NCBI GenBank assembly: GCA_030628225.1
Contig: DAOVRJ010000113.1
Coordinates: forward strand, 1 to 7,706
Source: Candidatus Zixiibacteriota bacterium
Lineage (GTDB): Bacteria > SM23-81
Direction of reading: 5' to 3'
DNA length: 7,706 nt
Shown one piece after another: positions 3,982 to 7,706 of this stretch. The translations under genes were made by a program, and so were the position numbers. The notes beneath the pieces are model-generated. The model made no database searches and was not told the origin of the DNA. It saw only the letters and a list, made by a program, of their open reading frames with translations. Each line of letters starts with the position of its first letter. Position 1 is the first letter of the stretch.

Positions 3982-4000
3982 AAAGGAAAGTGGTTTTATA

Positions 4001-4048
4001 AGGGGGAAGTATCCCCCTCGCTTCAACCGGCGTGCTGCTTCGCAGCAC
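4001..4048. other. Two hairpins / palindromes upstream of the sigma-54 promoter
   Basis: AGGGGGA (4001-4007) pairs with TCCCCCT (4012-4018), and GTGCTGC (4032-4038) pairs with GCAGCAC (4042-4048). Relative to the predicted sigma-54 start at about 3955 they lie near -46 to -63 and -77 to -93, and a third palindrome (4058-4078) follows at about -103 to -123. This is where enhancer-binding proteins usually dock. However, the third palindrome belongs to a repeat that is also present downstream of tldD, so the symmetry may come from the repeat rather than from regulation. Confidence 0.4.
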
Positions 4049-4137
4049 CGGGGTGCTATCGGCAGCTATGCTGCCGATGCCGTTTTCCTTTACGTCAACC
4101 GGCACGCGCCCCTCGCCGTTTTCCGCTACCCCCTCTG
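4046..4137 (+). repeat. 92-bp dispersed repeat, copy 1 (inverted relative to copy 2)
   Basis: This segment is nearly identical to the reverse complement of 7536-7626. By eye there are two substitutions and one 1-nt indel over 92 bp. It contains a strong palindrome, ATCGGCAGC (4058-4066), loop TAT, GCTGCCGAT (4070-4078), and then a non-palindromic tail with two CCGTTTTCC motifs (4080-4088 and 4116-4124). Similarity stops sharply at both ends. No believable protein is encoded. The size and palindromic head suggest a REP/MITE-like non-autonomous repeat; its family is not recognised. Confidence 0.85.
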
Positions 4138-4218
4138 CGGTACGACTTGCGAGCAGCACTCAGTTGAGGTCTATAGCCGCAGAAACACGACACCCTCTGA
4201 CCTTTAGGCTGCAACCCA

Positions 4219-4339
4219 AGGGGTCGAGGATTCAAGGATTCCAGGGTTCAAAGGACCCCCGACCACAACCCCGGTGAGGCTGCCAGGCTTTCAATTGCCT
4301 TTCCCCTCGAATCCTGGACCCCTTGACTCCTTGAATCCT
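4219..4339. repeat. Facing inverted arrays of AGGATTCA octamers upstream of tldE
   Basis: The left array (4219-4258) runs AGGGGTCG, AGGATTCA, AGGATTCC, AGGGTTCA, AAGGACCC. The right array (4303-4339) is the reverse-complement type: CCCCT, CGAATCCT, GGACCCCT, TGACTCCT, TGAATCCT. The period is 8 bp, unlike the 7-bp repeats elsewhere. The core (4259-4302) is about 44 nt. The block could fold into one long imperfect hairpin ending about 65 bp before the tldE start. No convincing tldE promoter was found in it or after it. Confidence 0.75.
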
Positions 4340-4385
4340 ATGTTATTTCCAAGCTCGTTTGTCGTCATAAGAAATCTGATACTCT

Positions 4386-4394
4386 AAAAGGAGG
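4386..4394 (+). promoter_or_regulatory. Ribosome binding site that fixes the GTG start of tldE
   Basis: AAAAGGAGG (4386-4394) is a full Shine-Dalgarno match, 9 nt before a GTG at 4404. It selects this non-ATG start, the first in-frame start codon of the gene. Confidence 0.8.
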
Positions 4395-4403
4395 CAAACT
4401 GAA

Positions 4404-5750
4404 GTGTTAGGACAAGCCAAATTGGAAGAGATCGCCCGACGGGTGCTGGGCTTCTCCAGCGCGGATCAAACGGAGGTGCTCATCTTAGGCAACGTTGAGC
4501 ATCTGACCCGCTTCGCTGTTAACACCATCCATCAGAACGTGTCGGAGACCGACGTGACAGTCCGGGTGAGGTCTGTGTTCGGCAGGAAGCAAGGCGTCGC
4601 CTCGGGCAACGACCTGAGCGAAGAAGCTCTGCGAAAGGTGGTGGAATCGGCCGAGACGGTGGCCCGCTTCCAGCAGGACAATCCGGACTTCCACTCCCTT
4701 CCGGAACCATCGCCGGCCAAGGAAGTTGACGCCTACTTCGCGGCAACGGCCAGCTGTAGCCCGGAGACCCGGGCCAGGGGAGCCGCCGCCATCTGTGCCA
4801 TGTCGCGGGAGAATGGCCTGCAGGCAGCGGGCGCCTTCTCCACGGCGGCCAACGAGATCATGGTGGTCAATTCCCTGGGCGTATCTGCATATCACCGCGG
4901 CACCGTGGCGCACATCGTCACCGTCATCATGGGCCAGGACAGCTCCGGTTATGCCTCGGCAGACAGCCTGGACGTGGCCAGGCTGGACCCGGAAGCCATA
5001 GGCCGGACGGCTGTGGACAAAGCCCTGCGGGGCACCAATCCCACGGAAATCGAGCCCGGGGAATACACCGTGATCCTGGAGGAGAACGCCGTGGCCGACA
5101 TGCTGAATACTCTGAGCTACCTGGGCTTTGGCGCTCTGTCGGTCCAGGAGGAGAGCAGCTTCATGAACGGCCGTTTCGGGAAGAAGATCACCGGGGAGAA
5201 GATCACCATCTGGGACGACGGTTACGATCCCCGGGGGTTGATGATACCCATCGACTACGAGGGGGTGCCCAAGCAACGGGTGACCCTGATCGAAAAAGGC
5301 GTGGCCAGGGGCGTGGTCTACGACTCCTTCACCGCCGGCCGGGAGAAGGGCAAAGTCTCCACCGGCCATAGCTGGCCGGCACCCAACACCTACGGTCCCG
5401 AGCCCATGAACCTGTTCATGGCGCCCGGAGAGGCCACCAAAGAGCAAATGCTGTCCTCGACCGAGCGGGGCATCTGGGTGACGCGTTTCCACTACACCAA
5501 CCCGGTTCACCCTATCAAGACGGTGTTCACCGGCATGACCCGGGACGGAACCTTTCTCATCGAGAACGGCCGGATCACCCGACCGCTGAAAAACCTGCGT
5601 TTCACCCAGAGCATTCTGGAGGCCTTCGACAAGGTGGAGATGCTCGGCTCGGAGCTGAAGCTAATCAAGGCCGATTGGGAGAATACCGCCAGCTGCGCTC
5701 CGGCAGTTAAGATCAAGGATTTTCGGTTCACGGGAACAACTGAATTTTAG
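4404..5750 (+). CDS. tldE: TldE/PmbA, non-catalytic subunit of the TldD/TldE metalloprotease
   Basis: A 448-residue cytoplasmic protein of the PmbA/TldE family, close to the usual length of about 450. TldE pairs with TldD to form a heterodimeric protease; in E. coli it matures microcin B17 and degrades the unfolded antitoxin CcdA. The N-terminal domain (about 1-215) contains SETDVTVRV (47-55) and the VVNSLGVSAYHRGT stretch (154-167). The C-terminal domain begins at PGEYTVILE (218-226) and carries YEGVPKQRVTLIEKGV (285-300), STGHSWPAPNT (319-329) and FTGMTRDGTFLIENGRI (375-391). At the position where TldD has its zinc motif this protein reads NTLSYLGFGA (235-244) with no HExxxH, as expected for the non-catalytic partner. 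Start is GTG with a perfect Shine-Dalgarno. tldD follows 244 bp downstream. Confidence 0.94.
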   Translation: MLGQAKLEEIARRVLGFSSADQTEVLILGNVEHLTRFAVNTIHQNVSETDVTVRVRSVFGRKQGVASGNDLSEEALRKVVESAETVARFQQDNPDFHSLPEPSPAKEVDAYFAATASCSPETRARGAAAICAMSRENGLQAAGAFSTAANEIMVVNSLGVSAYHRGTVAHIVTVIMGQDSSGYASADSLDVARLDPEAIGRTAVDKALRGTNPTEIEPGEYTVILEENAVADMLNTLSYLGFGALSVQEESSFMNGRFGKKITGEKITIWDDGYDPRGLMIPIDYEGVPKQRVTLIEKGVARGVVYDSFTAGREKGKVSTGHSWPAPNTYGPEPMNLFMAPGEATKEQMLSSTERGIWVTRFHYTNPVHPIKTVFTGMTRDGTFLIENGRITRPLKNLRFTQSILEAFDKVEMLGSELKLIKADWENTASCAPAVKIKDFRFTGTTEF

Positions 5751-5772
5751 TGAAGGAAGAATACACGTTCGT

Positions 5773-5938
5773 GTTCGTTGAAAAAGAGGATTCAAGGGGT
5801 CAAGGATTCAAGTGCCCCACCACCCCAAATAACTTTTATAGCGCTGCTTTTAGGTTTTCACTTGAATCCTCGAATCCTGGGGTGGCGGACATGGGAGAAA
5901 GGGGAATCCTTGAATCCTTTGATTTTTAATCAACGAAC
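5773..5938. repeat. Fold-back element with 9-bp terminal inverted repeats between tldE and tldD
   Basis: GTTCGTTGA (5773-5781) and TCAACGAAC (5930-5938) are perfect terminal inverted repeats. Inside each end follow A-rich/T-rich tracts and then AGGATTCA-type octamers: AGGATTCA, AGGGGTCA, AGGATTCA on the left (5787-5810), and reverse-complement units on the right at 5863-5878 and 5903-5918. An 11-nt exact match GGATTCAAGTG (5804-5814) faces its complement at 5859-5869. The whole 166 bp could fold into a branched hairpin. It resembles a small MITE-like element. It occupies most of the gap between tldE and tldD, which otherwise contains only the tldD ribosome site. Confidence 0.75.
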
Positions 5939-5994
5939 CTTGAATTAATTAATCTTTCCAATTCTTAATCTTCATTTTTTACTAGGAGAAATTC

Positions 5995-7458
5995 ATGAAA
6001 GAACTCACAGATCGCGCCCTGAACCTGGCCCAGACGCAGGGTGCCAGCTATGCCGATATTCGGATCGTGCACCGCCAGAGGCAGGACATCGCCGTCAAGA
6101 ACGGCGCCGTCCAAGAGCTGTCCCTGGACAGCACCCTGGGTTTTGGCGTGCGGGTTGTCGCCGACGGGGCATGGGGCTTTGCCAGCAGCCACCTGCTCAC
6201 CCCCGAGGAGGTGGACCGGATCACGGCCCTGGCGGTGAATATCGCCAAAGCCAGCGCTATGGCCAAGATCCAGGATGTGAACCTGGGCCCTGCCGAGGCA
6301 CACCAGGGCATCTATCACACACCTGTGGAGATCGACCCCTTCACCGTGCCCCTCAACGAGAAGGTCTCCCTCCTGCTGGAGGCCGACAAAGAGATGCGCA
6401 GCGTAAAAGGGGTCAAGGTGGCCGAGGCTAACATGACCTTTATTCGGGAGAGGAAGACCTTCGCCAGCACACAGGGAAGCCACATCGAGCAGGAGATCGT
6501 TGAGAGCGGGCTGGGCATTGTGGCCCGGGCGGTGGCCAAGGGTGAGATGCAGCAGAGATCCTATCCCAACTCATTCGGGCGGCACCAGGGAACGGCCGGC
6601 TACGAGTTCGTCAAAAAGTGGGACGTGGTGAGCAACGCCCGGCGGATGGGCGAGGAGGCTGTGGAATTGCTGAGCGCGCCGCAGTGTCCCAGCGGGATCA
6701 CCACCATCATCCTGGATGGCCCGCAACTGGCCTTGCAGGTGCACGAGTCGTGCGGCCATCCCATCGAGCTGGACCGCGTGTTCGGCACTGAGGCCGCTTA
6801 TGCCGGCACCAGTTTTCTCACGCCGGATAAATACGGGTCGCTCCGTTATGGCTCCGAGATAGTTAACATCACCGCCGACGCGGTGACCCCCACCGGGCTG
6901 GGCACCTTCGGCTATGACGACGAGGGTGTGCCGGCCCAGAAAACCGACATCATCCGAAAGGGCCTGTTCGTCGGATACCTCACCTCCCGGGAGACGGCCA
7001 GCCAGTTGCGACGCATCCACCCCGACGCGCCGGAGCGCAGCAATGGCTCCATGCGGGCCGACGGCTGGAACCGCATCCCCATCATCCGCATGACCAACGT
7101 CAGCCTGCAGCCGGGCCAGTGGACTCTGGACGACCTCATCGCCGACACCGACGAGGGCATCTACATGATCACCAACAAGAGCTGGAGCATCGACGACAAA
7201 CGGCTGAACTTTCAGTTCGGCACCGAGATGGCCTACGAGATCAAGAATGGTAAGCTGGGAAAGATATACAAGAACGCCACCTACACCGGCATCACCCCTC
7301 AGTTCTGGGGAGGGTGCGACGCCATCTGCAATGCCGGGTGTTGGCACGTGTGGGGCACGGCCAACTGTGGCAAGGGCCAGCCCGGGCAGGTGGCCCATAC
7401 CGGCCACGGCGCAGCCCCGGCTCGGTTTCGTAATGTGCAGGTGGGAGTTATGAAGTAA
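5995..7458 (+). CDS. tldD: TldD, catalytic zinc subunit of the TldD/TldE metalloprotease
   Basis: A 487-residue cytoplasmic protein of normal TldD length (about 480). TldD supplies the active site of the TldD/TldE protease, which cleaves unfolded or extended peptides threaded between the subunits. The zinc motif HExxxH is seen as HESCGH at 250-255, followed by PIELDR. The conserved C-terminal metal-binding region is present: TPQFWGGCDAIC (434-445), NCGKGQPGQVAHTGHG (457-472) with Cys458 as the likely third ligand, then PARFRNVQVGV. The N-terminal domain starts ASYADIRIV (17-25). The region near the active site carries four cysteines spaced C-x3-C-x3-C-x8-C (441-458), of which only the last is expected as a ligand. 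ATG start with AGGAGA 5 nt upstream. tldE precedes it, probably co-transcribed through the fold-back element. The natural substrate is unknown; no peptide precursor gene is visible. Confidence 0.96.
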   Translation: MKELTDRALNLAQTQGASYADIRIVHRQRQDIAVKNGAVQELSLDSTLGFGVRVVADGAWGFASSHLLTPEEVDRITALAVNIAKASAMAKIQDVNLGPAEAHQGIYHTPVEIDPFTVPLNEKVSLLLEADKEMRSVKGVKVAEANMTFIRERKTFASTQGSHIEQEIVESGLGIVARAVAKGEMQQRSYPNSFGRHQGTAGYEFVKKWDVVSNARRMGEEAVELLSAPQCPSGITTIILDGPQLALQVHESCGHPIELDRVFGTEAAYAGTSFLTPDKYGSLRYGSEIVNITADAVTPTGLGTFGYDDEGVPAQKTDIIRKGLFVGYLTSRETASQLRRIHPDAPERSNGSMRADGWNRIPIIRMTNVSLQPGQWTLDDLIADTDEGIYMITNKSWSIDDKRLNFQFGTEMAYEIKNGKLGKIYKNATYTGITPQFWGGCDAICNAGCWHVWGTANCGKGQPGQVAHTGHGAAPARFRNVQVGVMK

Positions 7459-7485
7459 GAGAGATTCGTATAAACCTAGGGTTGT

Positions 7486-7533
7486 GATTTTTCTTTTCCC
7501 GAGTTTCGAGTCTCGAATCTCGAATCTTGGCCT
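7486..7533. repeat. Dispersed 48-bp repeat with CGAGTCT heptamer core (second copy)
   Basis: A direct-orientation copy of 1551-1600: the same T-rich lead (GATTTTTCTTTTCCC), then heptamers CGAGTTT, CGAGTCT, CGAATCT, CGAATCT, TGG and the end GGCCT. It starts 27 bp after the tldD stop and abuts the 91-bp inverted-repeat copy at 7536. The T-rich lead follows a very short AACC/GGTT symmetry at about 7474-7484. No convincing intrinsic terminator for tldD is seen. Confidence 0.75.
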
Positions 7534-7535
7534 CT

Positions 7536-7626
7536 CAGAGGGGGTAGCGGAAAACGGCGAGGGGCGCGGCCGGTTGACGTGAAGGAAAACGGCATCGGCA
7601 GCATAGCTGCCGATAGCGCCCCGGTG
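7536..7626 (-). repeat. 91-bp dispersed repeat, copy 2
   Basis: Reverse-complement copy of 4046-4137, with the palindrome at 7594-7614 (arms ATCGGCAGC and GCTGCCGAT). Two substitutions and one single-base indel separate the copies. A different hairpin, CGCCATT (7629-7635) with AATGGCG (7641-7647), flanks this copy on the same side where copy 1 is flanked by GTGCTGC/GCAGCAC. The two copies bracket tldE-tldD. Confidence 0.85.
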
Positions 7627-7649
7627 CCCGCCATTCTGGAAATGGCGCA

Positions 7650-7688
7650 TTGAAAATTGTAAAATGAAAAGTGAAAAATGCAAAATGA
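7650..7688. repeat. A-rich degenerate heptamer array at the window end
   Basis: Units TTGAAAA, TTGTAAAA, TGAAAAG, TGAAAAA, TGCAAAA and TGAG show a 7-bp period with one 8-bp unit. The minus-strand reading frame through it is a repeat artefact. This is a further, AT-rich heptamer family, distinct from the GC-richer ones elsewhere. It may continue past the window edge. Confidence 0.6.
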
Positions 7689-7706
7689 GTGTCAAACCCT
7701 CAAGAT

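Follow-up and report, generated by a model that had tools for sequence, protein, structure and literature searches.

The closest described counterparts of the element reported here are the GTAG REP/RAYT systems, or REPtrons (repetitive extragenic palindromes with their REP-associated tyrosine transposases; E. coli REP, Pseudomonas REPINs). The element occurs twice, in inverted orientation, on either side of the gene pair tldE-tldD in a 7,706-nt stretch of DNA (contig DAOVRJ010000113.1, in the following the window) from the genome of a Candidatus Zixiibacteriota bacterium (GCA_030628225.1). TnpA-REP enzymes read a GTAG foot, an imperfect hairpin and conserved mismatches in single-stranded DNA (PMC8266576; PMC3733652). 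Like REP, the element is high-copy, intergenic and palindromic, and shares with it the 5' GTAG foot on the folded strand, conserved stem mismatches and a strand-specific architecture (PMC3733652, PMC8266576), although pairing of its last G within the outer GC stem is possible, so that the foot is not fully unpaired. REP, however, is a single palindrome of 20-40 bp, whereas the element is a multi-helix fold of 92-137 nt that carries a longer conserved stretch, GAGGGGGTAGC, and is conserved at its other end too, in the form of GCGAGGGGGA and a hairpin. Furthermore, in a REPtron the RAYT gene is flanked by REP, while the element was not found beside RAYT genes.

Bacterial interspersed mosaic elements (BIMEs) are built of mosaic intergenic palindromic modules, as is the element, for which 35 distinct module combinations were counted among 43 copies. 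BIMEs alternate the orientation of their REP units, whereas in the element the order and orientation of the modules are fixed for a given unit, the modules lying in a single fold whose partners covary. Membership in the REP family is not claimed; the closest resemblance is to REP/BIME. Miniature inverted-repeat transposable elements (MITEs) and stem-loop families such as NEMIS, RUP and ERIC are likewise small, dispersed, non-coding and strongly folding, but no terminal inverted repeat with target-site duplication could be demonstrated for the element, and no parental insertion sequence was found. The TM_ECO/PIT intrastrand triplex motifs (PMC4666352) resemble the element in part: they comprise G-/C-tract hairpins and a nearby G-tract, are intergenic, form inverted pairs and have been linked to genome instability. 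The TM_ECO consensus CCCTCNCCC..GGGNGAGGG..GGGNGAGGG (PMC4666352) has no match in the window, and the third G-tract of the element is separated from the hairpin by tens of bases and a variable stem; that the element forms a triplex is speculation.

Two mosaic copies of a dispersed element

The repeats around tldE-tldD very probably go back to separate insertions of a dispersed, non-coding REP/BIME-like element, one to each side of the genes, which do not constitute a cassette. This reading is carried by the high copy number of the element, its module mosaics, a multi-helix fold maintained by compensatory changes, ends recurring across phyla and an insertion-type junction upstream of tldE. The features concerned are:

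4000-4136, minus strand: copy 1, full-length La type; the folded strand reads GAGGGGGTAGCGGA...GCGAGGGGGATACTTCCCCCT (covariance model 147.6 bits, E = 5.6e-30)
7537-7651, plus strand: copy 2, Lb type, lacking the GGGGG...CCCCC left hairpin; the folded strand is the plus strand (covariance model 79 bits, E = 1.2e-14)
4046-4137, plus strand: 92-bp stretch common to both copies, the repeat as first annotated (arm alignment, E = 1.5e-37)
7536-7626, minus strand: its counterpart in copy 2, the second repeat as first annotated (same alignment)
about 4001-4364: copy-1 composite, i.e. element, module Ra, a fold-back (4211-4340) and the CTCGTTTGTCG end (matched to other copies)
4364/4365: junction at which identity with contig C304 ends and homology to the tldE upstream region of the nearest relative starts
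7488-7535: module Rb beside copy 2, heptad-like TTCGAGA/CTCGAAT words
7627-7706: module Lb beside copy 2, CCCGCCATTCTGGAAATGGCGCATTG and AT-rich words up to the contig end (86% identity with C304 to 7706)
4404-5750, plus strand: tldE, PmbA/TldE family (PF19289, E = 8.8e-49)
5995-7458, plus strand: tldD (PF19289, E = 1.6e-35)
5786-5930: GGATTCAAGG/CCTTGAATCC fold-back between tldE and tldD

In a first-pass annotation, 4046-4137 and 7536-7626 had been read as inverted copies differing by two substitutions and one indel, which is borne out at 97% identity: the arms 4045-4103/7569-7627 are 97% and the arms 4105-4137/7536-7568 100% identical, giving 96.7% over 92 columns. These 92 bp are only what two mosaic copies have in common and not the repeat unit. 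Left modules are La (GAGGGGGAAGTTTCCCCCTCGC and a hairpin), Lb (AT-rich words and CGCCATTTCCAGAATGGCGGG) and the short form Lc, while right modules range from Ra to Re, with alternative inner blocks in addition. Copy 1 is of the composition La...Ra, copy 2 of the composition Lb...Rb, and because the two carry different left and right modules their similarity stops abruptly. The abrupt ends noted in the first pass thus apply within the pair but not in comparison with other copies, against which both extend further, copy 2 over 7461/7536-7706 to the contig end.

The genome (2.34 Mb, 306 contigs, 92% complete) is a fragmented metagenome-type assembly. BLAST with the repeat finds 31 places. Exact matches to the conserved right core TCCGCTACCCCCTCT number 35, rising to 59 when up to two mismatches are allowed (reversed control 14). 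When 27 full copies are used to build a covariance model, it recovers 57 places at a cut-off of E ≤ 0.01, 42 of them above 45 bits. This favours one of the two possibilities raised in the first pass, namely that a REP/MITE-like repeat inserted twice, independently. For 42 copies scattered over 2.34 Mb, chance would place about 2.6 neighbouring pairs at a distance of 3.6 kb or less, about 1.3 of them in inverted orientation. One strong close pair is observed, that of the window, and the tldE-tldD contig is the only one with two strong model matches. As chance alone predicts about 1.3 close inverted pairs, the bracketing of tldE-tldD needs no explanation and is probably a coincidence.

Copies 1 and 2 are mutual nearest neighbours among 38 compared cores (0.967), but three copy pairs on different contigs reach 0.977. 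Since unlinked pairs are equally close (97.7%), gene conversion, offered in the first pass beside recent copying to explain the high identity, is not required and was discarded as its cause; recent local copying or conversion may have occurred, but is not needed to account for the likeness of the two copies. Overall the copies have diverged to a median pairwise identity of 0.76, and in one derivative (C155/L086) an internal deletion has joined two CCTCGCT direct repeats.

The copy-1 composite of about 365 bp is present elsewhere in the genome as well, with 91.5% identity over 342 bp on contig C215, 91.6% over 323 bp on C304 and 79% over 376 bp on C81. The fold-back 4211-4340 belongs to this composite, and thus the enclosed segment holds more than the annotated tldE-tldD pair and its intergenic fold-back, both of which do lie inside. 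In a base-by-base comparison the right edge ...CAAGCTCGTTTGTCG stops at 4364, where C304 diverges. Judged by these alignments, the right edge of the composite is an insertion-type junction located 40 bp before the tldE start codon.

Fold and covariation

The folded strand, which is the complement of copy 1, contains a closing stem S1, an inner stem S2, a stem S3, the hairpins H1 and H2 and a terminal hairpin H0. In copy 1 these are located as follows:

4001-4018: terminal hairpin H0, AGGGGGA AGTA TCCCCCT (DNA fold; in 27 copies its pairs vary little or not at all)
4025-4121: closing stem S1 (4025-4032 with 4114-4121), enclosing H1 (4032-4048), S2, H2 (4059-4077) and S3

Full copies measure 129-148 nt and form seven helices or helix segments, and shorter single-hairpin forms exist, Lc in this genome and others elsewhere. 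DNA folding of copy 1 yields the same structure (z = -5.1), while RNA folding of the two strands gives z-scores of -4.4 and -5.0. In the 27 aligned copies 96.4% of the cells are standard pairs and 16 pairs are changed on both sides, with a covariation score of 0.244; shuffling gives 0.089, and with slid partners the score does not exceed 0.052. The pair Z-X, whose partners are about 90 nt apart, is A-T in nine copies, G-C in seven, C-G in seven and G.T in two, with a mismatch in the remaining two. S2 occurs on the folded strand as three matched alleles, TG/CA, GC/GC and tandem GA/GA. At S1, which contains a constant C.T mismatch (G.A on the folded strand), the Watson-Crick fraction is 0.82 versus 0.66 after shuffling, a value of 0.82 being reached in none of 2000 shuffles.

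The loop of H1 reads GAA or GCA on the folded strand in 20 of 23 copies, and GGGGGTAGC with the GTAG foot is invariant in all 27. GNA loops and sheared G.A pairs are stable in single-stranded DNA. Non-Watson-Crick cells comprise 20 of the G.U type and 11 of the A.C type; because 10 of the 20 fall on a single inherited pair, there is no clear wobble asymmetry of the kind left by RNA.

Occurrence in other phyla and on plasmids

A pattern for the genome collections built on the 92-bp right core proved overly specific and gave no matches. One match outside this genome, in G020, revealed the common ends GAGGGGGTAGC ... GCGAGGGGGA-hairpin. The cross-phylum pattern AGAGGGGGTAGCG-N24-54-GCGAGGGGGA is found on at least 120 contigs, with an estimated 0.2 matches expected by chance. 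It fixes the ends and the GTAG foot, so that the constancy of the ends among its matches is by selection while the pairing of the middle is not. Hosts among the matches listed are Treponema and other Spirochaetaceae, termite-gut spirochaetes, Prevotellaceae, Fibrobacter/Chitinispirillia, one Nitrospirae metagenome-assembled genome (MAG), Geomonas oryzae and the actinobacterium Candidatus Ancillula. One Prevotellaceae genome of 2.1 Mb harbors 298 copies; the reversed control gave none in 20 host genomes. The distribution is patchy, as only three of a broad set of 386 genomes carry the element. A comparison of 100 distinct cores shows no variation in the outer GC/CG pairs or in a G.A - N - A.G internal loop; the inner stem changes in sequence but retains its pairing.

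On sphingomonad plasmids there is a version that shares the 5' hairpin, GGGGGCGTTGCGGGGG...CCCCCGCAGAGGGGGTAG, and no clean empty site was found among these plasmids. A 105-bp indel between two of these plasmids (L274 vs L269) ends exactly at the first base of the element (GGGGGGCGTTG), which suggests an element-adjacent deletion or a defined 5' end. A phage vehicle was rejected, as phage records gave no blastn match and the pattern is present in only 1-3 viral contigs. In Breznakiella homolactica (3.94-4.01 Mb, L278-L280) five copies in the same orientation lie in an RHS/YD-repeat locus with orphan C-terminal tails; an integron-like array was dismissed for this same-orientation group because of this location, and the copies were probably duplicated together with the RHS modules.

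Two termite-gut spirochaete MAGs contain multi-copy diverged RAYT-like genes near copies of the element. These were not retained as partners because they carry terminal repeats of their own, TGAGCCTGTTYCAAAAC. The same repeats, resembling terminal inverted repeats, also enclose some copies of the element in one such MAG (L189:5862-6133, L208:2810-3122), and as these lie between two TGAGCCTGTTYCAAAAC repeats the element may be carried as cargo there. In this MAG the nearest upstream copy is in the opposite orientation in seven of seven cases.

Rfam 15 has no match at the element, and no earlier description of the family was found in the open-licence papers searched, exact strings included. The family is apparently undescribed, with a description in other literature possible.

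Gene neighbourhood, spread and alternative explanations

The remaining proteins of the window are a PEP-CTERM protein, a LiaF-like protein and a protein resembling a C5-epimerase C-terminus; no recombinase or transposase is among the window proteins. In the nearest relative G001, of the same family but another genus, tldE-tldD is present in the same order, with proteins 80% and 88% identical, respectively, and DNA 78% identical over 3.1 kb. The intergenic fold-back is conserved at the same site and is an older, separate repeat family, common in this genome and in G001. tldE and tldD are also adjacent in G002 and G003, and in none of these three members of the same family and phylum does the covariance model find a copy of the element. 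The pair itself exists without the repeat in G001, but its surroundings differ: LiaF and epimerase sit together elsewhere in G001, which places a synteny break between epimerase/LiaF and tldED at copy 1, and the rest of the G001 tldED neighbourhood has no DNA match in this genome except repeats. Because the neighbourhood differs between the genomes and the break coincides with copy 1, a repeat-associated rearrangement is possible at this point.

With regard to mechanism, we infer mobility of the element from its dispersal. The element would spread in single-stranded, structured form. On its folded strand, which is the minus strand in the case of copy 1, GAGGGGGTAG is presented at the 5' foot, together with hairpins and a GNA/GNA internal loop. 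This would be analogous to the GTAG foot and imperfect hairpin that REP offers to a single-strand (HUH) transposase, and copying or strand exchange between copies would then yield the mosaics. Effects on tldED are probably incidental, for example as a structured 5' leader or spacer. Tentatively, and with the balance rather against it, the element may represent a hitherto undescribed cross-phylum class of structured mobile DNA with the ends GAGGGGGTAGC-GNA ... GNA-GCGAGGGGGA-hairpin and a freely varying palindromic middle, horizontally moved and amplified to hundreds of copies by a non-RAYT enzyme.

Several observations weigh against insertion of a mobile element as described. No transposase partner was found, whether of the TnpA-REP type that the first pass had proposed to look for or of another kind: inspected by eye, none of the four Y1_Tnp genes in this genome is flanked by the element, and those on contigs C92 and C179 have different palindromes of their own. 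PF01797 was missing from 12 of the 20 host genomes in a search of limited sensitivity, in which diverged Y1 proteins score below the cut-off, and no element is located beside the Y1 genes of the remaining hosts. A target-site duplication or exact empty site is not demonstrable at copy 1, where the nearest relative is of another genus and the left flank is rearranged. Moreover, the covariation could stem from RNA function or from self-templated correction of palindromes.

Selection on an RNA fold would make the element a structured RNA family (regulatory leader, 3' untranslated region or small RNA) of intergenic regions, in agreement with the strong covariation and the RNA folding z-scores. This is unlikely, given the missing Rfam match, the lack of a clear wobble asymmetry, the near-random orientation of 50 placed copies with respect to neighbouring genes, and flanking genes that are ordinary and have no family in common; as many as 298 near-identical copies in a single genome also fit a repeat better than a regulator. 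Somewhat more credible, though still doubtful, are relic repeats without current mobility, whose compensatory changes and mosaics would be due to recombination at ectopic sites and to self-templated correction of palindromes in the course of replication. The divergence of the copies, the deletion derivative at the CCTCGCT repeats and the absence of a transposase partner among the genes searched are consistent with relics, but the recurrence of these sequence-conserved ends on plasmids and in distant phyla, the very high copy number (298 in one genome) and the species-restricted presence here imply active spread by some route.

The first-pass annotation had also proposed a mobile or invertible 3.6-kb cassette, with the inverted repeats as ends of a composite element or as recombination sites carrying tldE-tldD. 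Near-identical inverted repeats at both ends, the closeness of copies 1 and 2 among the 38 cores and the synteny break at copy 1 would suit such a cassette, which nevertheless is very improbable: no recombinase or transposase is encoded in the window, the family comprises about 40-57 scattered copies with no excess of close pairs, the true repeat units are different mosaics reaching outward and inward, unlinked pairs are just as similar, and relatives lacking the repeat also have tldE and tldD next to each other. The cassette reading can be dropped. The assembly itself, with short-read contigs joined at repeats, is hardly to be suspected of having produced the bracketing. Many copies are indeed no more than about 220 bp away from a contig end in this assembly of 306 contigs, and the element helps to explain contig breaks at such places in such genomes. 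However, the longest exact stretch in common with another compared place is 64 bp for copy 1 and 51 bp for copy 2, shorter than usual long k-mers and reads, and the junction sequences differ. Independent insertion of dispersed copies remains the preferred reading, and the interest lies in the repeat family, with its sequence-conserved ends, structure-conserved middle, occurrence in several phyla and on alphaproteobacterial plasmids, no Rfam entry and none of the usual REP transposases found. A mobiliser, if found, would provide a test of single-strand hairpin transposition machinery beyond RAYT/IS200.

Some minor observations concern other repeats and motifs. The 3' end of a RAYT-like gene (L064:1314-1331, contig C289) holds GGGTAGCGGAAAA, 13 nt of which are identical to the foot of the element; this match is probably due to chance or coding, and by eye the other Y1 genes in this genome show no such foot match. 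On contig C221 (L063), an IS200-like transposase with CCCCCGCTCGTGAGCGGGGG hairpins is located just downstream of a second, paralogous TldD/TldE-type pair. At L027:1370-1469 on the minus strand (contig C154, about 2169-2268), the Rfam model PYLIS_3 (pyrrolysine insertion in mttB) is matched just below threshold, with 36.3 bits versus a gathering score of 38, which may point to the use of pyrrolysine by this organism. Finally, short-period intergenic words (TTCGAGA heptads; GGATCTAGGATC; CCGAGTTCCGAACTCC; AAAATGCAAAA), which we take to resemble the heptad short tandemly repeated repetitive (STRR) sequences of cyanobacteria, fill the spacers of this genome, in the window at 70-115, 1555-1600 and 7488-7533, at 22-176 and at 1437-1486, and some of them are also present in G001.

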